From the IMG/VR virus record IMGVR_UViG_3300006802_000044, positions 1 through 35,858 of that record: a stretch of DNA of 35,858 nt, one strand, 5' to 3'. A program made the translations under genes and the position numbers. Shown here one piece after another: positions 3,126 through 35,858 of the stretch (its first letter is position 1; the number at the start of each line of letters is the position of its first letter). The notes beneath the pieces were generated by a model. The model worked only from the letters and a program-made list of their open reading frames with translations, made no database searches and had not been told where the DNA came from. The stretch comes from a virus.

Positions 3126-4724
3126 ATGTCTGGCATATTTCATATGCTGTTGGGGCAAGTCGTAGGCGGCGGCAACTACACCATCATCGAGCAGTTCCTA
3201 GCCTCAGGAACGTGGACGGCTCCGACCGGCGTTACGTCCGTTGACTACCTTGTTGTTGCGGGTGGTGGTTCTGGCGGCAACTCTTCGGGCGGTGGCGGTG
3301 GTGCGGGAGGTTTCCGTACAGGCACCGCATTAAGCGTCACAGCCGGAACGGATTACACAATAACGGTTGGCGGCGGCGGCGCATCAGTAAACAGTCTAAT
3401 TAGCAACGGAAACAAAGGCAGCGATTCCGTATTTAGCACCATTACCAGCACGGGTGGCGGTTACGGATCGGGAAGCAGCGGGTCTCCCGGTGTTGCAGGT
3501 GGCCCCGGCGGTTCTGGCGGCGGTGGTTCTGGTTCACCGGGCGGGACGGGTGGCCCCGGTAATACGCCTTCCACAAGCCCCTCGCAGGGCAATAGTGGCG
3601 AAGTGGGCGACAACGGATGGGGCGGTGGCGGCGGTGGAGCAGGACAGGCTGGCGGCACTAGCGCACAAAGCAGCGGTGGAAATGGCACCGCATCAACGAT
3701 TAGCGGATCGTCTGTAACTTATGCGGGTGGCGGCGGCGGCAGAAATGTTGGCGCACCAGCCTCGCCGGGCGGGACAGGCGGTGGCGGTCAAGGCGCAGGA
3801 AATGCGCCAGTTAATGCGACTGATGGCACGGCTAACACAGGCGGTGGCGGCGGTGGAAGCCGATCAAGTGTTGCGTCGGGCGCAGGCGGCTCCGGCATTG
3901 TCATCCTTTCCTACGCTATGGCGTCCGGCACTCCGATCACCTTTAAGTCCACAGCAACGTGGACTGCACCGACTGGCGCAACGACGGTGGATTACCTTGT
4001 CGTAGCGGGTGGTGGTGGTGGTGGTTCTGTTATAGGCGGTGGCGGTGGAGCGGGCGGTTTCCGCACCGGCACGGCATTTAGTGTTACGGCAGGCACGGCT
4101 TACGTTGTAACGGTTGGCGGCGGCGGCACGGGCAGTTCAAACAACAGCAATGCAGGATCATCTGGTTCTAACTCTGTTTTTAGCACCATCACATCAGCCG
4201 GTGGTGGTGGTGGTGGAAGTAATAACAACGTCGCTGCCGGTGCTGGCGGCTCTGGCGGCGGCGCGGCAGGAACGGGAAGTTCTGGGGCATGGAATACCGG
4301 CGCAAATGGCAATACCCCGTCAACATCACCGTCGCAAGGCAACAAAGGCGGAGATACTGATACAACGTATCAAATCGCAGCCGGCGGTGGAGGCGGAGCA
4401 AGTGCTGCCGGTCAAAATGGGCCGAATGGTGCTGCAAGCGGTTCATCTGGAAATGGCGGCGCAGGCACGGCTTCAACGCTTTCTGGCAGCAGCGTCACAT
4501 ACGCTGGAGGCGGTGGCGGCGGCGGAAAAACTGCCGGCACAAATGCGCCAATTTCGGCTGGTAGTGGTGGGTCTGGCGGCGGTGGCGCAGGCGGTTCATC
4601 GGGCGCTGGAACTGCAGGAACCGCCAACACAGGCGGTGGTGGTGGCGGAGCAGGATATTCTGGAACGCCAAATACAACGGGCGGTACCGGCGGCTCCGGC
4701 ATTGTTATTTTGAAGGTGAACTGA
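3126..4724 (+). CDS. Duplicated glycine-rich adhesin-like protein
   Basis: The protein has 532 residues, with two long glycine-rich halves. Each begins with the same module (TWTAPTG..VDYLVVAGGG at about residues 29-47 and 279-297) and ends with GGSGIVIL (near 260 and 530). Long GGGG runs are spaced by short Ser/Thr/Asn stretches, compatible with a polyglycine-II sandwich as in the tip adhesins of some T-even-like phages (family knowledge). The internal tandem duplication is evident from the repeated start and end modules. It follows the 2247 gene after 3 bases and overlaps the next gene by ATGA-type coupling. It is probably a receptor-binding tip or fibre. Confidence 0.75.
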   Translation: MSGIFHMLLGQVVGGGNYTIIEQFLASGTWTAPTGVTSVDYLVVAGGGSGGNSSGGGGGAGGFRTGTALSVTAGTDYTITVGGGGASVNSLISNGNKGSDSVFSTITSTGGGYGSGSSGSPGVAGGPGGSGGGGSGSPGGTGGPGNTPSTSPSQGNSGEVGDNGWGGGGGGAGQAGGTSAQSSGGNGTASTISGSSVTYAGGGGGRNVGAPASPGGTGGGGQGAGNAPVNATDGTANTGGGGGGSRSSVASGAGGSGIVILSYAMASGTPITFKSTATWTAPTGATTVDYLVVAGGGGGGSVIGGGGGAGGFRTGTAFSVTAGTAYVVTVGGGGTGSSNNSNAGSSGSNSVFSTITSAGGGGGGSNNNVAAGAGGSGGGAAGTGSSGAWNTGANGNTPSTSPSQGNKGGDTDTTYQIAAGGGGGASAAGQNGPNGAASGSSGNGGAGTASTLSGSSVTYAGGGGGGGKTAGTNAPISAGSGGSGGGGAGGSSGAGTAGTANTGGGGGGAGYSGTPNTTGGTGGSGIVILKVN

Positions 4725-7171: not shown

Positions 7172-7290
7172 TACAGATAATCCAGGCCGTGACGCCGGCA
7201 GGCCCAATTGGGTGGCTCAGAAACGTACCGCCAATCATCATTACGCCGTTTTAATAACAACCATTCAATCATCAAAATCAACATGTTCAT
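7171..7290 (-). CDS. 39-residue small ORF
   Basis: It starts with ATG at 7290 inside the stop of the upstream gene (ATGA) and ends in TAATG with the next gene, so it fills exactly the gap between two genes. The protein begins with a hydrophobic stretch (MNMLILMIEWLLL) followed by a basic, aromatic tail (KRRNDDWRYVSEPPNWACRRHGL). It could be a tiny membrane-associated protein. The perfect coupling at both ends is the main evidence that it is translated. Confidence 0.55.
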   Translation of the reverse strand: MNMLILMIEWLLLKRRNDDWRYVSEPPNWACRRHGLDYL

Positions 7291-7838
7291 GGCATAGCCT
7301 CCACCGAGTAATTGTCAGAGGGAGATTCCCAACCCTGGGGCAATTCCTGGTCGATCCAACTTGGATCAGACCATAAAAGTTTGTTATTCGGGTAGGCAAT
7401 CCATGGCCCGCTATCCAGGGCGATAATGTGATGATCCTTGCTCTGGTTGCTGATCTCCGCCCAACCGCCATTGCACCAGGCAACGGTAAACAGGTAGACG
7501 CCTGGGCGTTTGATGCCGTCTCGGCCAACGGCCTGGACGCGGTGGTTACGCAAAAACTCTAATTCGGTAACCGTACAGTGGCGGCTAAAGGAATCCCACC
7601 AGCAGGCCAATTGTAAAGCCATTACAGGGCACGGTTTGGTTGCCAGGGCATGGATAGGGATACGCGCCCATTGCGCTCCCTGGGCCGTCATAAGCTGAAA
7701 CATGGGCACCCTGGCCGGTTCCGCTCTAAAAGCAAACACGGTGGCTTCCGTAAACTCACCGTGCCCGCGTTTCTGGTCGCATAGGAATTCATTGCGCACC
7801 AGGCAAGGGGTGTAAGGCGTGTTGACCAGGAACGTCAT
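7287..7838 (-). CDS. Conserved early protein, unknown function
   Basis: The protein has 183 residues, with ATGA overlaps on both sides. It is rich in Trp, Cys and aromatic residues (ALQLACWWDSFSRHC at about 75-90; VYLFTVAWCNGGWAEIS at about 121-137; the C-terminus has LLWSDPSWIDQELPQGWE). The mid-region LEFLRNHRVQAVGRDG could be a small helical element. No catalytic motif could be assigned. It lies downstream of the recombination genes, so it is expressed early. It could be a host-takeover or inhibitor protein. Confidence 0.65.
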   Translation of the reverse strand: MTFLVNTPYTPCLVRNEFLCDQKRGHGEFTEATVFAFRAEPARVPMFQLMTAQGAQWARIPIHALATKPCPVMALQLACWWDSFSRHCTVTELEFLRNHRVQAVGRDGIKRPGVYLFTVAWCNGGWAEISNQSKDHHIIALDSGPWIAYPNNKLLWSDPSWIDQELPQGWESPSDNYSVEAMP

Positions 7839-13654: not shown

Positions 13655-14374
13655 ATGGTGGAAAATATGGTTAATTCGCTGCATCAACGAGGCCCGGAAA
13701 GAGGCGGAATCCGACGATATCTCGATACCGTCACCCCAGCAGAATACGTCCCGCAAACGGGTGAGGTTGACCTTACGCAAGTCACGCTCCAGGGGCTTGC
13801 GGATCTCTACGGGTCAGACAAAGGCTCGATCAAACACCGCTACACGAAAATCTACGAAACGCTGTTGCCCGAAATCGGGGTAAAAGATCGGCTGACGCAC
13901 CCGCTGCGCTTGGCTGAAATCGGTGTCGCGTGTGGTGCCAGTTTGCGCATGTGGGGTAATTATTTACCCGCGGCCAAAATTGACGGATTTGATATTCAGC
14001 CCGAGTGCGCAACGCTATGCAGGGATATGCCGAACATCACGATCACGGTGAAAGATCCGCGCGAAATTGACTACGGCCCCGAGTTTGACCTGGTGATCGA
14101 TGACGGCAGCCATATTGCTGAAGATATCTTAGGCGTGTTCGCGCATTGCTGGCGGTGGGTTAAACCGGGCGGCATGTACGTCATCGAGGATATGGCCTGC
14201 ACCTACAACGACGCGTATCGCGATAAATTTAATAAACATTTTGGCAAATCGTTGATCAACGATCGCAAGATCATTCTGCAGATGTTTGATGCGTTGTCGC
14301 GGGAAATTGACGCGGGCGTGAGCGCATTTACGGAAATGCGGTATTACAAGCAAATGTGGATTTTTAAACGATGA
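13655..14374 (+). CDS. Class I SAM-dependent methyltransferase (MycE-like)
   Basis: The protein has 239 residues. An AAAGG ribosome site is 11 bases upstream. The stretch LADLYGSDKGSIKHRYTKIY (48-67), then LRLAEIGVACGASLRMWGNY (84-103, SAM-binding motif I), DGFDIQPE (motif II acid Asp113), and DLVIDDGSHIAEDI (145-158) match the methyltransferase type related to macrolide/sugar O-methyltransferases such as MycE. WVKPGGMYVIEDM follows. The likely target is a sugar or small molecule rather than DNA. It is coupled by ATGA to the VRR-NUC gene. Confidence 0.85.
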   Translation: MVENMVNSLHQRGPERGGIRRYLDTVTPAEYVPQTGEVDLTQVTLQGLADLYGSDKGSIKHRYTKIYETLLPEIGVKDRLTHPLRLAEIGVACGASLRMWGNYLPAAKIDGFDIQPECATLCRDMPNITITVKDPREIDYGPEFDLVIDDGSHIAEDILGVFAHCWRWVKPGGMYVIEDMACTYNDAYRDKFNKHFGKSLINDRKIILQMFDALSREIDAGVSAFTEMRYYKQMWIFKR

Positions 14375-14694
14375 GATGGGCGGCCAAGCGAGATGCCAAC
14401 GATGGCATCATCGGTGAGGCATTACGCGCCGCAGGCTTCACCGTGCACGATTTTGCTGCAGCGGGCGGTGGCATACCCGATCGCCTAGTAACTCGAGCAT
14501 TACCGGATAAAATGCCCTGGATCTGTTGGGTTGAAATCAAAACCGCCAAAGGCCGGCTGCGCCCAGGGCAACAAGAATTTCGCGCAGTATTTGAGCCGCG
14601 CGGCGAGTTTTACGTTGCTCGAGATCCCGAACAAACCGTGCGGGAGCTGATGGAACGTTACACCGCGGCGATTAGGCCCGAGCTTGCTCGCTGA
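14371..14694 (+). CDS. VRR-NUC domain nuclease
   Basis: The protein has 107 residues, a single PD-(D/E)xK domain. Glu16 in the first helix, Gly-Ile-Pro-Asp37 (AGGGIPDRLV), Glu55-Ile-Lys57 (WVEIKTAKG) and Gln67/Gln68 with Phe70 (LRPGQQEF) give the standard set for VRR-NUC proteins. Phage members cut branched or flap DNA, probably to clear junctions before packaging (family knowledge). The last 23 bases overlap the convergent glycosyltransferase gene. Confidence 0.88.
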   Translation: MRWAAKRDANDGIIGEALRAAGFTVHDFAAAGGGIPDRLVTRALPDKMPWICWVEIKTAKGRLRPGQQEFRAVFEPRGEFYVARDPEQTVRELMERYTAAIRPELAR

Positions 14695-15352
14695 ACATCA
14701 GCTCTTTGCGTTTGCCTTTGTAATGCACAATCACCGGATTCGTATGCGTATCCATGTGCTCGGGCAGGCAGGCGTACTGATGCTCGGGCAAGTGCGCCAC
14801 GTTACCAGGCCAAAGCTGGTTAACGTATTCACGCAGCACTTCCTGGTCGCCATACCAGGCTTTAAATTTGGGCTCGAGGCGGTCGTACATTTCCGCCAGG
14901 ATTTCCCAGGCACCCGCATCGGGCGTAATCGTGCAGCAACCAATGTACGGATAAGCCACGTCCAGGGATTTACCAGCGTGTTCCGAATAATCCTGGCCGC
15001 GTTGTTTGACGTTAAACGGCGCGTCTTTTTGGAACGATCGGCGCGTTACCGCGATGACCGCTTCGCCCAGGAGCAGCTCTGGGAACAGCGGACGCCGCAC
15101 GATCATGTCGGTATCCATGTACAGCGCGGGTTGCTCAAGCTGCAGCGCCGCAAACGCTTTTGTGCGCCACAGCATCAACAGCTGCGGGTCACCCGCGGTC
15201 GGGTGCGTCCAGGTTACCCCTGGCACGGTCGGCGTTTGATGGTCTGTGACCTGGATAATTTCGGCGCCAGGGTTATGTTTCCGAAGCGACGCCACCATGG
15301 CGGTTGGCATCGTCAAGTCGGGCCCAACGTGAAAGAAAACAAAGGTTGACAT
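14672..15352 (-). CDS. Glycosyltransferase (GT-A, GT8-like)
   Basis: The protein has 226 residues. It has an N-terminal beta strand MSTFVFFHVG, LLMLWRTKAFAALQL, the metal-binding DxD motif at 80-82 (LYMDTDMIV), WYGDQEVLREYV (167-178) and VIVHYKG (207-213, a C-terminal His ligand). This matches small retaining GT-A glycosyltransferases. It is the only minus-strand gene between 12093 and the right end, overlapping the VRR-NUC gene by 23 bases and divergent from the second methyltransferase with 14 bases between starts. No ribosome site is visible upstream of its ATG. It could modify a virion protein, DNA or host surface. Confidence 0.82.
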   Translation of the reverse strand: MSTFVFFHVGPDLTMPTAMVASLRKHNPGAEIIQVTDHQTPTVPGVTWTHPTAGDPQLLMLWRTKAFAALQLEQPALYMDTDMIVRRPLFPELLLGEAVIAVTRRSFQKDAPFNVKQRGQDYSEHAGKSLDVAYPYIGCCTITPDAGAWEILAEMYDRLEPKFKAWYGDQEVLREYVNQLWPGNVAHLPEHQYACLPEHMDTHTNPVIVHYKGKRKELMFSEQARA

Positions 15353-16044: not shown

Positions 16045-16416
16045 ATGGCTAATCACAAAACCGCGGCTGAATTTGTCGGAGTGTTGCTGCACAGCAGTAC
16101 GGCAACCCACTTTTTGCATTTGCAGACGGCGAGCTACGCCGCCCACAAGGCGCTGGGTCATTATTACGAAAACATCATTGACCTGGCCGACAAATATGCA
16201 GAGGCATACCAGGGGCATTTCGGCATCATCCCGCTAAACGATTATCCAGACGGGTTTAAAGTCCAGGCGGACGCGGCGAAATACGCCAACAGCCTGCTGA
16301 CGTTTGTAAAAGGCATCCGCAAGGATTTGCCGCAAGAAACCGATTTGCAGAACATCATCGATGAAATCGTGGGCGAAATTAGCGCGTTAATCTACAAGCT
16401 GGAGCGGTTCAAATAA
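16045..16416 (+). CDS. DUF5856-like protein (ferritin-like fold)
   Basis: The protein has 123 residues; AAAGGG is present 7 bases upstream. It has the conserved core HSSTATHFLHLQTASYAAHK (16-35), ALGHYYENIIDLADKYAEAY and QGHFGIIPL. These fit DUF5856, frequent in aquatic phages. The spacing of His/Asp/Glu in the helices recalls Dps/ferritin-like four-helix proteins, but metal binding is not shown. It is coupled to the next gene (TAATG). Confidence 0.75.
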   Translation: MANHKTAAEFVGVLLHSSTATHFLHLQTASYAAHKALGHYYENIIDLADKYAEAYQGHFGIIPLNDYPDGFKVQADAAKYANSLLTFVKGIRKDLPQETDLQNIIDEIVGEISALIYKLERFK

Positions 16417-17459
16417 TGAGCCGACGCCAGGAAATGGTCGCTGCACTCCAGCGCATGACCAGCCTGGATCAGCCGCAGAATCAAACCGGCGCCGAGGTGG
16501 CGGCCGACATTGCCCTGGGATTCACGCCGCTTGCTGTGCCGCAAAGCGCTCGAGATTTCGAGCGGTCCAGGCGCCAGGGCGACAAGCTCGGCATGTTGCT
16601 GGCAGGCGTTGGCATGGTTCCAGTGGTTGGCGGCCTGGTGAAGGGCGGCAAAACGGCCATTAAAACCATCGACAAGGCGATAGAGGGCCGATATTTCGAC
16701 CGCCTAGCCAAGGACTACGAAGGGCTGAAAGCCGCTTACGCAGCCATACCGGAGACCAAGGGCGGCAAGGTGCTCAACACCGACACAGCCCGTGAGCTCT
16801 CGCCCGATTACCTGGCTGACCGCACCCGCTCTGCGGACGTACACGAACCTTCCAGCGCGTTCATTAAGCGCGTATTCGCAGAACGCATGGCGCAACCGAC
16901 GCCGCCAGGGAAAGAGCCCCTGGTGGTATTTACCGCAGGCGGTACGGGCGCCGGCAAAACCTCGGGCTTAAAGGGTTTGCGGGAAGCCGATCCCAGGATC
17001 GACCGTGCCGAGCTCGAGTACGACACCAACATGAACAAATTTAGTTCAGCCAAGGAAAAGGTTGATGAAGTGCTGAAGTCGGGCCGCCGCGCCCAGGTGT
17101 TTTTTACTTACCGCAACCCGGTGGAATCGCTGGACCAGGGCGCATTAACGCGCGCAATGGACCAAGAGGCGCAATTTGGCACAGGCCGTACTGTCCCCAT
17201 TACCGAGCATCTGAACACCCATATCGGCTCCAGGGACGTAATGGAAAAGCTGCAAAAGGAATACGGCGACAACCCCAATTTCCGCCTGGTGGTGATTGAT
17301 AACAGCCGCGGCAGAGGTAACGCCGTGGTTTCTTCACTGGATAAATTACCCAAATTAGACGAAAATAAGGTGCGAGATGAACTACACCAAGCCCTCGAAA
17401 AAGCCAGAGCCGAGAAAAGAATTTCTGAGAAAGTCTATCGAGGCTTTGCAACCTACTAA
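16416..17459 (+). CDS. Zeta-toxin-like P-loop protein with membrane-type N-terminus
   Basis: The protein has 347 residues. The first 90 contain a hydrophobic Gly-rich segment (KLGMLLAGVGMVPVVGGLV, 57-75) of the kind found at the start of phage-injected or secreted proteins. From 144 on it resembles zeta-toxin kinases: EPSSAFIKRVFAERM, VVFTAGGTGAGKTSGLKGL (Walker A 175-183), YDTNMNKF, VFFTYRNPVES, and a late FRLVVIDNSRG. Zeta toxins phosphorylate UDP-GlcNAc and block wall synthesis. No epsilon-like antitoxin is adjacent. An injected effector or a virion-associated kinase is possible. Confidence 0.68.
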   Translation: MSRRQEMVAALQRMTSLDQPQNQTGAEVAADIALGFTPLAVPQSARDFERSRRQGDKLGMLLAGVGMVPVVGGLVKGGKTAIKTIDKAIEGRYFDRLAKDYEGLKAAYAAIPETKGGKVLNTDTARELSPDYLADRTRSADVHEPSSAFIKRVFAERMAQPTPPGKEPLVVFTAGGTGAGKTSGLKGLREADPRIDRAELEYDTNMNKFSSAKEKVDEVLKSGRRAQVFFTYRNPVESLDQGALTRAMDQEAQFGTGRTVPITEHLNTHIGSRDVMEKLQKEYGDNPNFRLVVIDNSRGRGNAVVSSLDKLPKLDENKVRDELHQALEKARAEKRISEKVYRGFATY

Positions 17460-17550
17460 GCCGTCGCATTGGGAAGAAAGCGACAGCATGGGCCAGGCTT
17501 TAGCGGATGCGCTAAACCGGGCCGTGTTAGGCAATAAACCGACACGCTGA
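17377..17550 (+). CDS. 57-residue overlapping small ORF
   Basis: The ATG at 17377 has AAGG 7 bases upstream and begins 83 bases before the end of the zeta-like gene in a different frame. Peptide: basic N-terminus (MNYTKPSKKPEPRKEFLRKS) and a helical end (SMGQALADALNRAVLGN). It covers the otherwise empty interval up to 17550. Its position could suit an antidote to the zeta-like protein, but there is no resemblance to epsilon. The next gene starts 1 base after its stop. Confidence 0.55.
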   Translation: MNYTKPSKKPEPRKEFLRKSIEALQPTKPSHWEESDSMGQALADALNRAVLGNKPTR

Positions 17551-17551
17551 T

Positions 17552-17716
17552 ATGCCGAGCTCGAGCAACAAGCAACGCCGGTTCATGGCCGCTGCTGCGC
17601 ACGATCCCCAATTCGCTAAACGCGCCGGCATCCCCCAAAGCGTGGCTCAGGATTTCAATAAGGCCGACAAAGGCAAAAAGCTCGCCGAAGCCATGAAGCG
17701 CATGAAGCGTGATTAA
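17552..17716 (+). CDS. Small basic phage protein (DUF3008-like)
   Basis: The protein has 54 residues. MPSSSNKQRRFMAAAAHDPQ, FAKRAGIPQSVAQDF and NKADKGKKL are the pattern of a very common short phage protein (S.aQqrlM...a.gip..va.eF..ADkg). Its role is unknown. It starts one base after the previous stop and precedes the terminase genes. The basic composition suggests nucleic acid binding. Confidence 0.7.
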   Translation: MPSSSNKQRRFMAAAAHDPQFAKRAGIPQSVAQDFNKADKGKKLAEAMKRMKRD

Positions 17717-17754
17717 CTTTGGTATGTGGCGCAAAAGCAACTGAAATCAATTAC

Positions 17755-17994
17755 ATGGCTGCTCGCAAAATACATACGACCTTGCGCGATAACTGGCGGT
17801 TACGCATCAAGGCCTCGAGCTTGGTTAACCGGCTGCATGAGCATGCCCTGGGGGAGGCGGAAATGTCGCAAACCCAGATCAAAGCTGCCGAGATCTTGTT
17901 GCGCAAAGTGGCGCCCGATTTGGCTCGCCAAGAAGTCACCGGCCAGGACGGTGGCCCACAAGAGCTGGTGATTAAATGGCGCGAACCGAAATAG
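17755..17994 (+). CDS. Candidate small terminase subunit
   Basis: The protein has 79 residues. ATG 17755 is chosen rather than a TTG at 17719. Residues 5-52 (LRDNWRLRIKASSLVNRLHE; EAEMSQTQIKAAEILLRKV) have a helical, HTH-like layout, followed by APDLARQEVTGQDGG and a short beta tail. Proteins of this size and pattern directly precede TerL in related phages and probably recognise the packaging site. It overlaps TerL by 19 bases. It is short for a TerS (often 100-180), so confidence is moderate. Confidence 0.65.
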   Translation: MAARKIHTTLRDNWRLRIKASSLVNRLHEHALGEAEMSQTQIKAAEILLRKVAPDLARQEVTGQDGGPQELVIKWREPK

Positions 17995-19322
17995 AGCTCC
18001 CTTACGAGCCTCGGCGCGCGTTTCTAGCGTTTCACAATCGCACCCAACGTTGGGCCTGCCTGGTCGCTCATCGCCGCGCAGGCAAGACGGTAGCGGCCGT
18101 CAACGACATTATTCGAGCAGCGATCACGTACCAGGGCCCGTATGGGCTATTCGCCTACATCAGCCCATTCAGATCCCAGGCGAAGGGCATTGCCTGGCAA
18201 TACTTTAAGGATTTCGCTCGGCCGATCATCAAGGCAACGAACGAGCAGGAATTGACGATCACTCTGGTAAACGACGCGCAGATCCGGCTATACGGGGCTG
18301 ACAACGCCGATGCGATGAGAGGCTTGGGATTCAGCGGGGTATTCTGTGACGAATATTCTGACTTCAAGCCCAGCGTGTTCGGTAACGTGCTCCGACCGGC
18401 TTTGAGCGACAAGCAAGGTTGGTGCGTGTTTGCCTCGACGCCGAAGGGCCGCAACCAGTTTTACGACATTTACGACACCGCTCAGCGGCTGCCGCACGAA
18501 TGGTTCCTGCTGCGTTTGCCTGCCTCGACTAGCGGGCTACTCCCTAGCGGTGAACTAGCGGCCGCTAAAGCGCAATTGTCCGAGGACCAGTATCTGCAGG
18601 AATACGAGTGCTCGTTTGAGGCGAGCCTTGGCCTCGGAGCTTTTTACGGGCGAGAGATGCGGCTGGCAACCGAGCAGGGGCGCGTGGTCCAGGTCGATCA
18701 CGATCCCGATCTGCCGGTATACACCGCCTGGGACCTGGGTTACCGAGATGACACGGCGATCTGGTGGTATCAGCAACACCGCGGCGAGATCCGCGTCATC
18801 GATTTTTACGCTGTGTCGGGCGCCGACATTCACGAAATTGCCGAGTTTGTGACGAGCAAACCCTATCGATATGAGCGGCATTTCCTGCCGCACGATGCTC
18901 GAGCGAAATCGCTGCAAACGGGCAAATCGATCGTTGAACAGCTGGCGAGCTACCTTGATCTGCGCAAGCTCACGGTGGTGCCGGACATTGGTTTGCAATC
19001 GGGCATCCAGGCGGTGCGCATGATTTTGCCGCGCGTTTGGTTTGACGCTGAAAAGTGCCGCGAAGGCATCGAGGCGTTACGGCAGTACCAGCGCGAGTAC
19101 GACGAGGATAAAAAAGCGTATCGTCAAAGCCCGCGACATGATTGGACTAGCCACCCTGCAGACGCATTTCGTATGCTTGCGGTATCATGGCAAGAACATG
19201 GCGACAAGTCCCCGGCACCAGCGGAGCCTAAAGCTCTAATCGTCGGGCCCGAAAACAAAGTGACGTTAAACGATATGTGGCAAGTCCACGATCGATCGGT
19301 GACCAGGAGAGCCCGAATATGA
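17976..19322 (+). CDS. terL: Terminase large subunit
   Basis: The protein has 448 residues. The ATPase has Walker A in AHRRAGKTVA (31-40), Walker B VFCDE (122-126) and coupling motif FASTPKG (152-158). The nuclease domain has its first acidic residue in YTAWDLGYRDDTAIWW (about 249-264) and a late DWTSHPADAFRML with the last acid. It is the packaging motor and headful or site-specific cutter, docking on the portal encoded at 20072. ATG 17976 lies within the TerS candidate. The stop overlaps the next start (ATGA). Confidence 0.95.
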   Translation: MARTEIELPYEPRRAFLAFHNRTQRWACLVAHRRAGKTVAAVNDIIRAAITYQGPYGLFAYISPFRSQAKGIAWQYFKDFARPIIKATNEQELTITLVNDAQIRLYGADNADAMRGLGFSGVFCDEYSDFKPSVFGNVLRPALSDKQGWCVFASTPKGRNQFYDIYDTAQRLPHEWFLLRLPASTSGLLPSGELAAAKAQLSEDQYLQEYECSFEASLGLGAFYGREMRLATEQGRVVQVDHDPDLPVYTAWDLGYRDDTAIWWYQQHRGEIRVIDFYAVSGADIHEIAEFVTSKPYRYERHFLPHDARAKSLQTGKSIVEQLASYLDLRKLTVVPDIGLQSGIQAVRMILPRVWFDAEKCREGIEALRQYQREYDEDKKAYRQSPRHDWTSHPADAFRMLAVSWQEHGDKSPAPAEPKALIVGPENKVTLNDMWQVHDRSVTRRARI

Positions 19323-19621
19323 GCATTGTGAGCCCCAATCGGTATCCATACGAAACCGTTGCCGCATCGCAAACAGCCCAGGTGCTGGGTGGTACAGGCG
19401 CGGTGGGCGATTATCTGCACCGCATTGTGGTCACCGTGACCACGGCCGGCAGCTCCACCCTCACGTTGCTCGATGGCAGCACAACGGTGCTCACCATGGC
19501 AGCGAATACGCCGATCGGCGTGTACAGCCTCGAGATTAACGCGGCATCGGCAAGCGGTCCGTGGAAAATCACGACAGGTGCAGGCCTGGCGGTGCTGGCG
19601 GTTGGATTCTTTACCGCATGA
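19319..19621 (+). CDS. Small conserved structural-type protein
   Basis: The protein has 100 residues. ATG 19319 overlaps the TerL stop (ATGA) and has GGAGAG upstream. It has the opening SIVSPNRYPYETVAASQTAQ, then an all-beta sequence (LHRIVVTVTTAGSSTLTLLD; TPIGVYSLEINA; AVLAVGFFTA). This opening recurs in proteins of many uncultured phages near the packaging genes. It is likely a small virion beta-sandwich protein; the precise role is unknown. Confidence 0.7.
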   Translation: MSIVSPNRYPYETVAASQTAQVLGGTGAVGDYLHRIVVTVTTAGSSTLTLLDGSTTVLTMAANTPIGVYSLEINAASASGPWKITTGAGLAVLAVGFFTA

Positions 19622-19779
19622 GTAAGCCAGGGCTGTATGCCAACATTTTAGCCAAGCAGGAACGGCAGAAACGCCAACGAGCTGCTGGCGAAACGGTGGA
19701 GCGCACCCGAAAGCCTGGTGAAGCAGGCGCGCCGACCGCGGCGGCTTTCAAGCAATCGGCAAAAACGGCAAAGCAATGA
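19618..19779 (+). CDS. 53-residue basic protein
   Basis: It is coupled at both ends (ATGA). The pattern MSKPGLYANILAKQERQKRQ then RKPGEAGAPTAAAFKQSAKT is a common short protein encoded between TerL and portal in related phages. Highly basic and probably unstructured alone. Function unknown. Confidence 0.75.
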   Translation: MSKPGLYANILAKQERQKRQRAAGETVERTRKPGEAGAPTAAAFKQSAKTAKQ

Positions 19780-20066
19780 CGGCAGCCTGGACGCGAAGCG
19801 CAGGGAAAAACCCGAAAGGCGGATTAAACGCCAAGGGCCGCGCGTCTTATCACCGCGAAACGGGCGGTACGTTAAAGCCCCCGGTGAAAGCCGGCGATAA
19901 CCCGCGGCGCGCATCGTTTTTGGCGCGAATGGGCAACATGCCAGGACCGATGGCGAAAAACGGTAAGCCGACGAGGTTGGCATTGGCATTACGCGCATGG
20001 GGCGCCTCGAGCAAAGAGGACGCCAAAGCAAAGGCCCGCGCCATCAGCGCTCGAAACAAGGGATAA
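19776..20066 (+). CDS. Conserved basic protein (DUF6321-like)
   Basis: The protein has 96 residues. AWTRSAGKNPKGGLNAKGRA, SYHRETGGTLKPPVKAG and DNPRRASFLARMGNMPGPM form a well-recognised phage protein of unknown function. Rich in Gly, Lys and Arg. It lies between packaging and portal genes. It may be a DNA-binding or assembly accessory. Its end is 5 bases before the portal start. Confidence 0.8.
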   Translation: MTAAWTRSAGKNPKGGLNAKGRASYHRETGGTLKPPVKAGDNPRRASFLARMGNMPGPMAKNGKPTRLALALRAWGASSKEDAKAKARAISARNKG

Positions 20067-32849: not shown

Positions 32850-34104
32850 AAAAACATTTACGACGCCATACGAGGACGAACGCGCAAAAGCGGAGCGTCA
32901 GCGTCGGCTTGCGGAAATGATGCAGCAGCAAGCGTTTGCGCCAGACGGTGAAACGCCGACGTACCAGGGATTTCGCGCGCAGCCATCGATCGCTAACGCA
33001 TTGTCGAAAGTGCTTGCCGCGTATACGTCCAAAAAGCTGGGCGAAAAAGCTGACGCCGCAGAGGCCGCAGCTCGCCAGGCAGATCTGCAGGCATTTCAGC
33101 AGCTGCGATCGGATCTCGGCCCGCAAACTCGCTCGATCACGGGCGAAGCGTTGCCCAGCCAGGACTTTGCCGGCATTGCCAGTGCGTATCAGCCAGACAT
33201 TTCGCAGCAGGCCCAGGTCGAAACTGTCATGCCGTCTGCGCAAGAGCGGTCAGAGCGGTTATTCCAGGCCGCGGTGTCGCCTGGATCGCCCACTGCAGCT
33301 CGATATGCGCAGCTGATGCTATCGCGCGAGCCCAATGTCAGCGTCGAAGCGCTGATGGAAGCGTCGCCCGAAAGCGCTGCCGAATTCAAACGCACGGGCG
33401 ATTACACGGTGCTGCGCAAACCGCCGGCAGAAACCAAATTGCCGACCAGCGCGCAAGAATTTCTCTTGGCATCGACTAACCCAGAATTTGGCAAATGGCT
33501 CATTACGCAAAAACGTGCGGGTGCGTCAAATGTGGATGTTCGGTATGGCGCGCCAGAAAAAGGCATTAACACAGCTGGCCAAGAAGTGTTTTTCCAACCT
33601 AATCCGAAAGGCGGCGCGCCGGTCATCATTCCTGGCGTTGCGCCGGTGCCGACAGCCACAACGGAAGGCCAGGCCAAAGAGCGCGGGTTTGCTGACCGTA
33701 TGGCGGAATCTTCGCCAGTGTTTGACACCATTGGTGCGCCATCGTTTGTTTCTCGGGGCAAGGCAGGGTTACCCGGCGGCGTTGGCAATCCGTTGTTAAC
33801 ACCCGAAAACCGGCAATTTTTGCAGGCCGAGCGCAATTTCATTAACGCAACGTTGCGCCGTGAGTCGGGTGCGACGATTCAACCGCATGAATTTGCGGAA
33901 GCGCGTCAACAGTACATTCCGCAGCCGGGCGACGATGAAAAAACGCTCGAAATGAAACGCAGAAACCGTGAGACAGTCGCTGCAAACGTGGCCGGTGGGG
34001 CAGGCAGGGGTTACAAATTGCCGCCGCTGAGGCCGCCAGAGGGCGTTTCGCCGATGGAATGGGCGGAAATGACCATTGAGGAGCGTCGGAGGTTTTCGCG
34101 ATGA
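32839..34104 (+). CDS. Ejection/internal virion protein candidate
   Basis: The protein has 421 residues. ATG 32839 has GGGGAG about 12 bases upstream. The N-terminus is a charged helix (PYEDERAKAERQRRLAEMMQ), then IANALSKVLAAYTSKKLGEK, AEAAARQADLQAFQQLRSDL. Middle blocks (SPGSPTAARYAQLMLSREPN; ASPESAAEFKRTGDYTVLRK) and a C-terminal ATLRRESGATIQPHEFAEAR, QQYIPQPGDDEKTLEMKRRN motif are typical of proteins encoded in the podovirus ejection module. The function is assigned by context. It overlaps the next gene (ATGA). Confidence 0.7.
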   Translation: MPVKKTFTTPYEDERAKAERQRRLAEMMQQQAFAPDGETPTYQGFRAQPSIANALSKVLAAYTSKKLGEKADAAEAAARQADLQAFQQLRSDLGPQTRSITGEALPSQDFAGIASAYQPDISQQAQVETVMPSAQERSERLFQAAVSPGSPTAARYAQLMLSREPNVSVEALMEASPESAAEFKRTGDYTVLRKPPAETKLPTSAQEFLLASTNPEFGKWLITQKRAGASNVDVRYGAPEKGINTAGQEVFFQPNPKGGAPVIIPGVAPVPTATTEGQAKERGFADRMAESSPVFDTIGAPSFVSRGKAGLPGGVGNPLLTPENRQFLQAERNFINATLRRESGATIQPHEFAEARQQYIPQPGDDEKTLEMKRRNRETVAANVAGGAGRGYKLPPLRPPEGVSPMEWAEMTIEERRRFSR

Positions 34105-35858
34105 TGACCGATGAGCAACGCCAAGCGTTGGAAGCGGCTCGAGCACGAATCGCCAATCGTCAAGGCGATACAGGCGCACAAAAATCGCGTGGCGATGTTC
34201 AGCGTCAACGTGTCAATCGTGATCTTGTATCCAACCAGGAATTGCTGACGGCCCAGGCCCGCTCAACCGATCCCGAAGCTTTTATGCAGGGCCGGCAAAT
34301 GTCGCCGTATGCCCAAGGCGCTTTAACGGCTGCCCAGGGCGCAACGTTTAATTTTGCCGATGAGCTGGCTGGGTTAGTAAATCCGCGGTATCGAGAAATG
34401 GTCCGCGGCGCGACGGGTCAATTTGGCGCAGATTATCCGATGGGCGCGCCTGCAACCGAATTTGCCGGCGGATTAGTCACGGCGCCGTTTACGGGCGCGT
34501 TATCGCTTGGTCGCGGCGCATCAACGATTGGCAACATTGCTCGTGCTGGCGTCGATTTTGCCGCCCAGGGCGCTTTAAGTGGCGCAGGCGCAGCAAAGGA
34601 AGGGGAAAGGGAACAAGGCGCGTATCAAGGCGGCATGACGGGCGCAATAATGGGCGGTATTGGCACGTTAGGGGCCGATATTTTCCGACGCACCATCGGC
34701 CAGCCCATTTTGTCGCGGTTGCCGCAGGGCGTATTGGGAATGCTTCCCGAAAGTGCCGGCGGCTACAATGTGCGCCCAGATTACGCCAGGGAACGGTTGG
34801 CGCAATTGCTCGAGCAAGACGCGCAAGCTCGGTTGGGAAGCGCTGCAACGCGAGGCCAGGGCGCCGATATTGCGGCGGCCAGGATTCGGAAAATTGGCGG
34901 TGAAGCGCCGATTGCCGCGTCGGGCGAAAACACGCTGGCAGAAATCGATGTGTTGTCGCAAATGCCAGGATCGGCGGCAAAACGGCTCAACATGCAGCGC
35001 CGCCGCATTGAATCGCAGCGCGGACCGGCAATCATTGGCGCAGCAGAAACCATTACCGGCGTTTCTAAATCTGCCGATGACGAATTGCTTGACCTGGCTA
35101 AGCTGCAAGCCGAAAACGCCGGACCGTTGTATCGAACCCTGCAAACGGTTCGATTCCCGGTTGATGCCGATCTGCAAAAGATTTTGGGCCGGGCAAAGCT
35201 TGACCTGGCTGGCGCACAGCGCAGCGCAACGCGGCGCGGCGAACAGGAAACGGCATTGCGCGACCTGGTAGAAGGCGACGAATTGCCGTTTGCCTCGGCC
35301 GATCAGCTAAAGCGCACGTTGTTCGATAAAGCGCGCGCGGCGCGTAAGGCAGGCAGAACAAACGAGGCAATTGATCTCGATGAATTGCGCATCGATTTGG
35401 TCAAAAAACTGGATTCGTTATCGCCCGATTACGCCAAAGCGCGCAGTACGTTTGCCGGATATGCCGAGCTGCAGGAAGCTGTGGAAAAGGGCCAGGGCGC
35501 GTTTTCCGAATCCGCCGAAGCGCTTGGCAAATTAACGCGTGACATGACGCAATCGGAGCTCGATGCGTTTCGGATCGGCGCCATTGATTCATTGCGCAGC
35601 ACAGCAAACACCCAAAGCGGGCAGACACGTTTGCTGAATATGTACAAAGAGCCAGAGCTGCAAGCCAAAATCCGCACAATTTTCGGCAACGATTTCCGCA
35701 AATTCCAAAGTGCAATTTTGGGCCAGGAACAGCTGAAAGCGGTGGAACGCGCTGGCCGCGGCTCGCAAACGTTTGGGCGCGAAGCTCGAGCGGCGGATCA
35801 GAAAGATCAATTCGATATGTTGCAGGCGGCGCAATCGGCCACTACAAACCCGGTTGGC
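34101..35858 (+). CDS. Large ejection-type virion protein, 5' part (ends at 333)
   Basis: The frame runs from ATG 34101 (ATGA overlap) to the window end without a stop: 586 codons, of which the last 41 repeat those at 1-123. With 1-333 it makes about 655 residues. After a charged start (DEQRQALEAARARIANRQGD), residues about 75-200 are rich in Gly/Ala with membrane-like stretches (EFAGGLVTAPFTGALSLGRG; GGMTGAIMGGIGTLGADIF), then a long charged helical region. This fits a podovirus protein injected into the envelope with the DNA. No lysozyme motif was seen. Confidence 0.85.
   Translation, partial: MMTDEQRQALEAARARIANRQGDTGAQKSRGDVQRQRVNRDLVSNQELLTAQARSTDPEAFMQGRQMSPYAQGALTAAQGATFNFADELAGLVNPRYREMVRGATGQFGADYPMGAPATEFAGGLVTAPFTGALSLGRGASTIGNIARAGVDFAAQGALSGAGAAKEGEREQGAYQGGMTGAIMGGIGTLGADIFRRTIGQPILSRLPQGVLGMLPESAGGYNVRPDYARERLAQLLEQDAQARLGSAATRGQGADIAAARIRKIGGEAPIAASGENTLAEIDVLSQMPGSAAKRLNMQRRRIESQRGPAIIGAAETITGVSKSADDELLDLAKLQAENAGPLYRTLQTVRFPVDADLQKILGRAKLDLAGAQRSATRRGEQETALRDLVEGDELPFASADQLKRTLFDKARAARKAGRTNEAIDLDELRIDLVKKLDSLSPDYAKARSTFAGYAELQEAVEKGQGAFSESAEALGKLTRDMTQSELDAFRIGAIDSLRSTANTQSGQTRLLNMYKEPELQAKIRTIFGNDFRKFQSAILGQEQLKAVERAGRGSQTFGREARAADQKDQFDMLQAAQSATTNPVG
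35736..35858. repeat. Right copy of 123-bp terminal direct repeat
   Basis: Identical to 1-123 and in the same reading frame of the ejection-type gene. It indicates that the two ends join. Confidence 0.95.

Follow-up and report, generated by a model that had tools for sequence, protein, structure and literature searches.

What a tailed phage does with a zeta-type kinase encoded directly in front of its terminase genes is the question raised by the DNA analysed here (the window), a stretch of 35,858 nucleotides comprising positions 1 to 35,858 of IMG/VR virus record IMGVR_UViG_3300006802_000044. The 123 bases at either end (1-123 and 35736-35858) are identical, indicating that this is a complete phage genome, circular or terminally redundant, with 35,735 unique bases; the IMG/VR record itself carries no completeness value. 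The genome has recognisable genes for terminase, portal, major head protein, a tail protein, holin and endolysin. Elsewhere in the genome, a tail-fibre-like protein (346-2235) consists of numerous short repeats of the ATGASVASANIGTA type, a glycine-rich protein (3126-4724) contains a duplicated TWTAPTG..VDYLVVAGGG unit, a large alanine/glycine-rich protein (34101-35858, continuing at 124-333) resembles phage ejection proteins (phrog_5880, function unknown), and a gene at 7287-7838, among other minus-strand genes, matches phrog_3704, which is annotated as ferredoxin.

The kinase gene (16416-17459) encodes 347 residues and, like each of its neighbours in the locus, is on the plus strand. To its left is a DUF5856 gene (16045-16416; PF19174, E 1.7e-23, and synteny), whose TAA stop overlaps the kinase ATG as TAATG, which argues that the two genes form a tight operon. 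To its right an ORF of 57 codons (17377-17550) lies in the +1 frame relative to the zeta gene and overlaps its 3' end by 83 nt (17377-17459), with a Shine-Dalgarno-like AAGG (17367-17370) situated within the zeta frame 6 nt 5' of the small-ORF ATG. It is followed by a 54-aa ORF (17552-17716) that occurs in zeta and non-zeta phages alike and is therefore not zeta-specific, by the presumed terminase small subunit (17719-17994, start uncertain), assigned from synteny and from its place ahead of the large subunit, and by the terminase large subunit TerL (17976-19322; phrog_2, E 1.9e-40). A common order in the relatives examined is VRR-NUC, DUF5856, zeta, small ORF and terminase. The initial annotation had reported the overlapping ORF with its own ribosome binding site and the lack of an adjacent epsilon gene, and both descriptions hold: the small ORF is conserved, and no epsilon-like gene was found beside zeta, the neighbours being DUF5856, the 57-aa ORF and the terminase genes. 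Further upstream, a glycosyltransferase-like ORF without a PHROG match (14672-15352) lies on the minus strand within a plus-strand block, flanked by Methyltransf_24-type genes (at 13655 and 15367); these three genes suggest a possible surface or glycan modification function, near the putative UDP-sugar kinase.

A zeta-like kinase had been proposed from the Walker A motif GGTGAGKT(S) (16938-16961, P-loop residues 175-183), and this assignment is strongly supported. The protein matches Pfam Zeta_toxin (PF06414) with 49.4 bits (E 5.1e-13), passing the curated cut-off of 22.3. The best PDB match in a single-sequence search is ng_zeta1 (E 2e-5), and when a 41-member profile was searched against the PDB, ng_zeta1 (6eph) was the only significant molecule, aligned in one colinear stretch with an E value of 1.1e-15. 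Comparison of a predicted structure with zeta and PezT had been suggested as a check on the assignment. The AlphaFold2 model, whose pLDDT exceeds 90 for most of residues 90-345 and which is not confident before about residue 85, superimposes on chain B of 6eph with a Z score of 27.1 and an rmsd of 2.2 Å over 247 residues; the next structural neighbours are AvrRxo1 (Z 11.9), 1gvn (Z 11.1), 2p5t (Z 10.2) and a bacterial polynucleotide kinase (Z 9.1). For the kinase domain, scans of IMG/VR recovered 185 and 287 relatives, those examined being mostly standalone proteins of about 270-370 aa. The close relatives are all metagenomic, many of them on fragmentary contigs; the sole confident relative among annotated phage records is in MW202577, and a plasmid search found none.

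Five candidate active-site residues, D123, K181, D203, R246 and R258, are invariant in all 41 sequences. D123 (16782-16784) belongs to the catalytic-Asp block NTDTARELSP..SADVHEPSS (16776-16868), located 5' of the P-loop, and aligns with the catalytic Asp56 of ng_zeta1, while K181 (16956-16958) aligns with its catalytic Lys115. D203 (in YDTNM), R246 and R258 (in GRTVP) are encoded within 17022-17189; R246 aligns with ng_zeta1 Arg175, and R258 falls within a few columns of Arg181, both of these ng_zeta1 arginines belonging to a positive patch. The fold together with the conserved catalytic residues suggests that the enzyme is very probably active. The order of the blocks is swapped as in the ng_zeta1 subclass, with D123 before K181, the arrangement described as 'shuffled' in ng_zeta1 (PMC5923241). 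It also accounts for a gap in the Pfam match, in which the P-loop maps to profile positions 11-39 and the following stretch to positions 100-178, since in the window kinase the P-loop comes after the catalytic-Asp block. Membership of the classical epsilon/zeta (PezAT) group was considered and rejected: the Streptococcal epsilon/zeta and PezAT systems have the zeta kinase fold (1gvn and 2p5t), but the catalytic-Asp block of the window kinase precedes the P-loop and no three-helix epsilon antitoxin is adjacent.

The kinase occupies a slot, bounded by DUF5856 on the left and terminase on the right, that is polymorphic. Among loci collected through their terminase, most phages with a TerL 75-80% identical to that of the window hold another protein there, and many of these replacements start with the same module of about 90 residues as the window protein. 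In a tree built from the terminases of 124 phages, zeta presence changes 15 times, 14 of these changes being forced by well-supported branches, and there are 23 changes among three slot states; the slot is thus polymorphic, and the module is a part common to its proteins. A second clade of phages, which has another terminase, likewise shows a polymorphic slot. From these comparisons the slot appears to be an interchangeable effector bay. Other variation is also seen in the region. Two small genes that lie 3' of TerL in the window (19603-20066) sit before the slot in several relatives (loci L010-L017), indicating that the slot region is rearranged besides being polymorphic, and in L319, L321, L352, L356, L360, L221, L222 and L226 the slot holds, instead of an effector, a protein of about 230-415 aa, read by eye as ParB-like plus DNA methylase.

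The shared module, about residues 1-89 of the kinase protein (16416-16682; alignment A6), is glycine-rich and contains a single hydrophobic stretch, KLGMLLAGVGMVPVVGGLV, at residues 57-75 (Kyte-Doolittle mean of 1.81). The initial annotation took it for a membrane-type N-terminus. The glycine-rich character and the hydrophobic stretch are indeed present, but the latter is only marginally transmembrane-like and the module is absent from most kinase relatives, which have other terminases and a short Q/P-rich N-terminus instead, so that 'shared module' is a better name than membrane anchor. Module-bearing proteins number 91 unique sequences with 21 C-terminal clusters; in the slot, the same N-terminal module precedes unrelated domains including ART-PolyVal, LPD23, GNAT and others, with ParB-like and RelA/SpoT-like domains read by eye only. 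Where a terminase is on the contig, most of these proteins end about 70-590 nt 5' of TerL. The module is also present within giant proteins of 1606 and 2408 aa, in the latter just before ART-PolyVal. Ten members searched against Pfam gave no match, DUF4112 at E 0.05 in two of the ten being the nearest, and a known Pfam pretoxin domain was accordingly rejected as its identity. The Q/P-rich N-terminus was likewise rejected as a shared module of the second clade, having no convincing non-zeta carriers among the loci compared. Separately, slot proteins of varying length in nine second-clade loci (L326, L333, L334, L342, L345, L347, L355, L359 and L375) share another N-terminus, MPTLADIYSAI.SAKRKGSDFVQNPGTSLQQM, which is possibly a second delivery module.

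A common N-terminal part joined to variable C-terminal domains is also the architecture of the MuF polymorphic toxins of temperate phages (Jamet et al. 2017, PMC5576092), which are likewise encoded in the packaging module and are followed by a small ORF taken as an immunity gene. However, the window gene lies before the terminase rather than after the portal, and its overlapping ORF belongs to one family conserved with the zeta domain only. The protein is not itself a MuF toxin, as no MuF domain appears among Pfam matches to E 1 and the N-terminal module matches no Pfam family.

The small ORF is conserved across about 80 other phages and is therefore not a chance reading frame. It follows nearly every standalone zeta gene as an ORF of 49-77 aa, always in the +1 frame, starting 64-124 nt before the zeta stop and carrying a conserved ending, '..A..aLN.av', 3' of that stop; an SD-like motif precedes 72 of the 83 distinct family members. 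To avoid a shadow of the zeta frame, a profile was built solely from the part past the zeta stop. It matches at 141 of 154 zeta loci and at none of 73 non-zeta loci, the latter figure meaning that there are no recognisable homologues, as the profile was trained on zeta-adjacent ORFs; non-zeta slot effectors also usually leave less room for an ORF, the median gap to TerL being 276 nt versus 353 nt. The non-overlapping part, compared over 405 pairs, has a pN/pS of 0.49 pooled and 0.35 as a median, whereas the other two frames give 0.97 and 1.36, indicating purifying selection. The relative sets were ranked by similarity and are thus redundant, which a tree-based test allows for: of the 124 phages in the tree, 77 have both zeta and the small ORF and 47 have neither, and all 14 phylogenetically independent contrasts show the small ORF tracking zeta (sign test, p 1.2e-4). 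In the set with the second terminase, both genes occur at 17 loci and neither at 27, and the small ORF stands alone on one contig (L311), which includes only 2.7 kb before TerL, such that a zeta gene would fall off its end. The small ORF is, on these comparative data, a real gene strictly paired with zeta.

Two trivial explanations of the pairing were rejected. A shadow of the zeta frame is inconsistent with the matches kept at standalone loci using only the part past the zeta stop, and a general pre-terminase gene is inconsistent with its lack of recognition at the 73 non-zeta loci and in the 47 tree phages without zeta. Weak whole-ORF matches at four large fused zeta loci were lost, or fell to E 8, beyond the zeta stop, and the large fused zeta proteins of L094, L103, L113 and L148 have no recognisable small ORF, suggesting either that an antidote is not always required or that it goes unrecognised there. 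Because the two genes overlap, their joint transfer as a cassette would be expected even without a functional link; the case for a functional bond is that the small ORF is retained under purifying selection beside zeta and is absent beside other effectors with the same module. We found no Pfam, PHROG, NCBIfam or PADLOC match for the 57-aa protein, and detected no similarity to the ng_epsilon1 chain or to any other PDB chain. Its structural model is of low to moderate confidence, the only better-predicted part being a C-terminal helix (residues 31-52), and a low-confidence model with one helix is what would be expected of a protein that folds upon its partner. A small partner protein is also present in the ng_epsilon1/ng_zeta1 system of Neisseria gonorrhoeae, where ng_epsilon1 is a non-globular extended chain wrapped round ng_zeta1 (PMC5923241).

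These comparative genomic data suggest that the 57-aa protein is probably the antidote to the kinase, and to that extent the earlier proposal of a toxin-antidote pair is well supported. An adaptor role is common among the small proteins that partner delivered effectors, and the 57-aa protein could instead be a stability partner, or an adaptor or chaperone through which the kinase is loaded into the particle, rather than an inhibitor. Strict pairing with zeta is compatible with either role, and the large fused zeta proteins that are missing the small ORF may need no adaptor. Nonetheless, the absence of a recognisable homologue beside other slot effectors with the same module argues that the small ORF goes with the zeta domain rather than with the N-terminal module, and we consider the adaptor role somewhat unlikely.

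Where and when the kinase acts is addressed by its associations. Iyer et al. (2017; PMC5512222) list a zeta-like kinase among the domains of polyvalent proteins, place the phage genes for such proteins near late genes, propose that the proteins are injected, and suggest that the kinase may weaken the wall and aid injection of phage DNA. The window locus has both the polyvalent domain repertoire, ART-PolyVal and LPD23 being among the slot alternatives, and the late-gene location. In L103 and L146 a sister zeta domain is fused to ddrB-ParB, and in L139 to InPase; ddrB-ParB and InPase are both polyvalent-protein domains. Those three proteins thus combine at least two effector domains in one polypeptide; the window protein, in contrast, has one effector domain, zeta with the N-terminal module only, and a dedicated small partner gene. 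In MW202577 the zeta domain forms the C-terminus of an 878-aa protein encoded in the structural-gene region; homology of its N-terminal part with the ejection-like protein at 34101 in the window was not supported.

Taken with the polyvalent domain list, the sister fusions argue for delivery of the window protein in the virion, and the earlier suggestion of an injected effector is favoured by them and by an N-terminal module that precedes about 20 unrelated C-terminal domains, polyvalent types included. It is also conceivable that the kinase is absent from the virion and works at a late stage inside the cell that makes it, where a halt in wall synthesis would aid the holin and endolysin and the 57-aa protein would delay action until lysis. 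The gene is in a late operon next to the terminase genes; the window also has genes for holin and endolysin, and zeta enzymes lyse cells on expression (PMC5923241). However, the slot and the module also carry ART, GNAT and other domains without a role in lysis, and related zeta domains are found inside large polyvalent-type proteins, and such a late intracellular role is in our view unlikely.

The most likely substrate of the enzyme is a UDP-sugar, given its likeness to ng_zeta1 (6EPG, 6EPH and 6EPI; PMC5923241) in fold, swapped blocks, catalytic Asp and P-loop Lys. The ng_zeta1 residue Lys59, which contacts UNAM, aligns with Arg126, and Asn75 is not kept, in a gapped region of the alignment, suggesting that the exact substrate may differ from that of ng_zeta1. 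Unlike ng_zeta1, the window kinase is also phage-encoded in a terminase-linked polymorphic slot, has no C-terminal OB-fold domain, and carries an N-terminal module that has no counterpart in the match. The zeta-like kinase AvrRxo1 phosphorylates NAD, a different substrate. The Xanthomonas AvrRxo1-ORF1/ORF2 system resembles the window pair in joining a zeta-like kinase to a small partner, and AvrRxo1 is delivered, but it is made by a bacterium and matches the window kinase far less closely in structure than ng_zeta1 does. The next structural neighbours include AvrRxo1 and the bacterial polynucleotide kinase, and these, with the Lys59 to Arg difference, would be compatible with phosphorylation of NAD, nucleic-acid ends or protein. 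Such a substrate is improbable, as ng_zeta1 is far closer in structure and is the sole significant match of the profile in the PDB.

A toxin-antitoxin module acting in superinfection exclusion or plasmid-like maintenance, in a carrier or lysogenic state, is very unlikely. The pairing of a zeta fold with a small ORF is the generally recognised hallmark of epsilon/zeta systems (PMC5923241), but the window genes examined include no recognised integrase or repressor, the locus stays fixed to the packaging operon, and unrelated enzymes replace the kinase in sister phages.

The explanation that we favour is a cassette of effector and antidote that occupies an interchangeable effector slot within the late operon of this complete tailed-phage genome. 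The kinase would be made late, together with the packaging genes, and the 57-aa protein would bind it and hold it inactive in the producing cell. Most likely, the N-terminal module would carry the kinase into the particle; on entry into the next cell the kinase would then slow wall synthesis or make that cell useless to rivals. There the block-swapped kinase would most likely phosphorylate UDP-activated sugars such as UDP-GlcNAc or UDP-MurNAc, draining precursors of the cell wall and LPS. As a whole, this reading of a late-made polyvalent-type effector, probably virion-delivered, that phosphorylates UDP-sugars and has a cognate small antidote stands, in our judgement, an even chance of being right.

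Each element has a precedent: the enzyme in ng_zeta1, phage zeta domains in polyvalent proteins, and variable C-termini with small immunity ORFs in MuF toxins. What appears to be new is the combination of a slot for single-domain effectors ahead of the terminase, an N-terminal module with no earlier description and a conserved partner gene overlapping that of the block-swapped zeta kinase, a combination not described in the limited library of literature searched; neither the slot nor the module is described in the sections of PMC5512222 consulted. Somewhat more tentatively, we propose that aquatic tailed phages have a swappable pre-terminase weapon slot, that the new module delivers any of about 20 effector domains into the host, and that zeta has its own overlapping antidote, representing an unreported antitoxin family for block-swapped zeta kinases. 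If true, this would turn the loose idea of zeta kinases that weaken the wall at the entry stage into a compact, testable system of a 347-aa kinase and a 57-aa partner, with natural replacements at the same locus in close relatives available for comparison. The small partner would be a candidate for a new antitoxin family of ng_zeta1-type kinases, and the N-terminal module would provide a handle for finding effector domains of unknown function in uncultivated phages.
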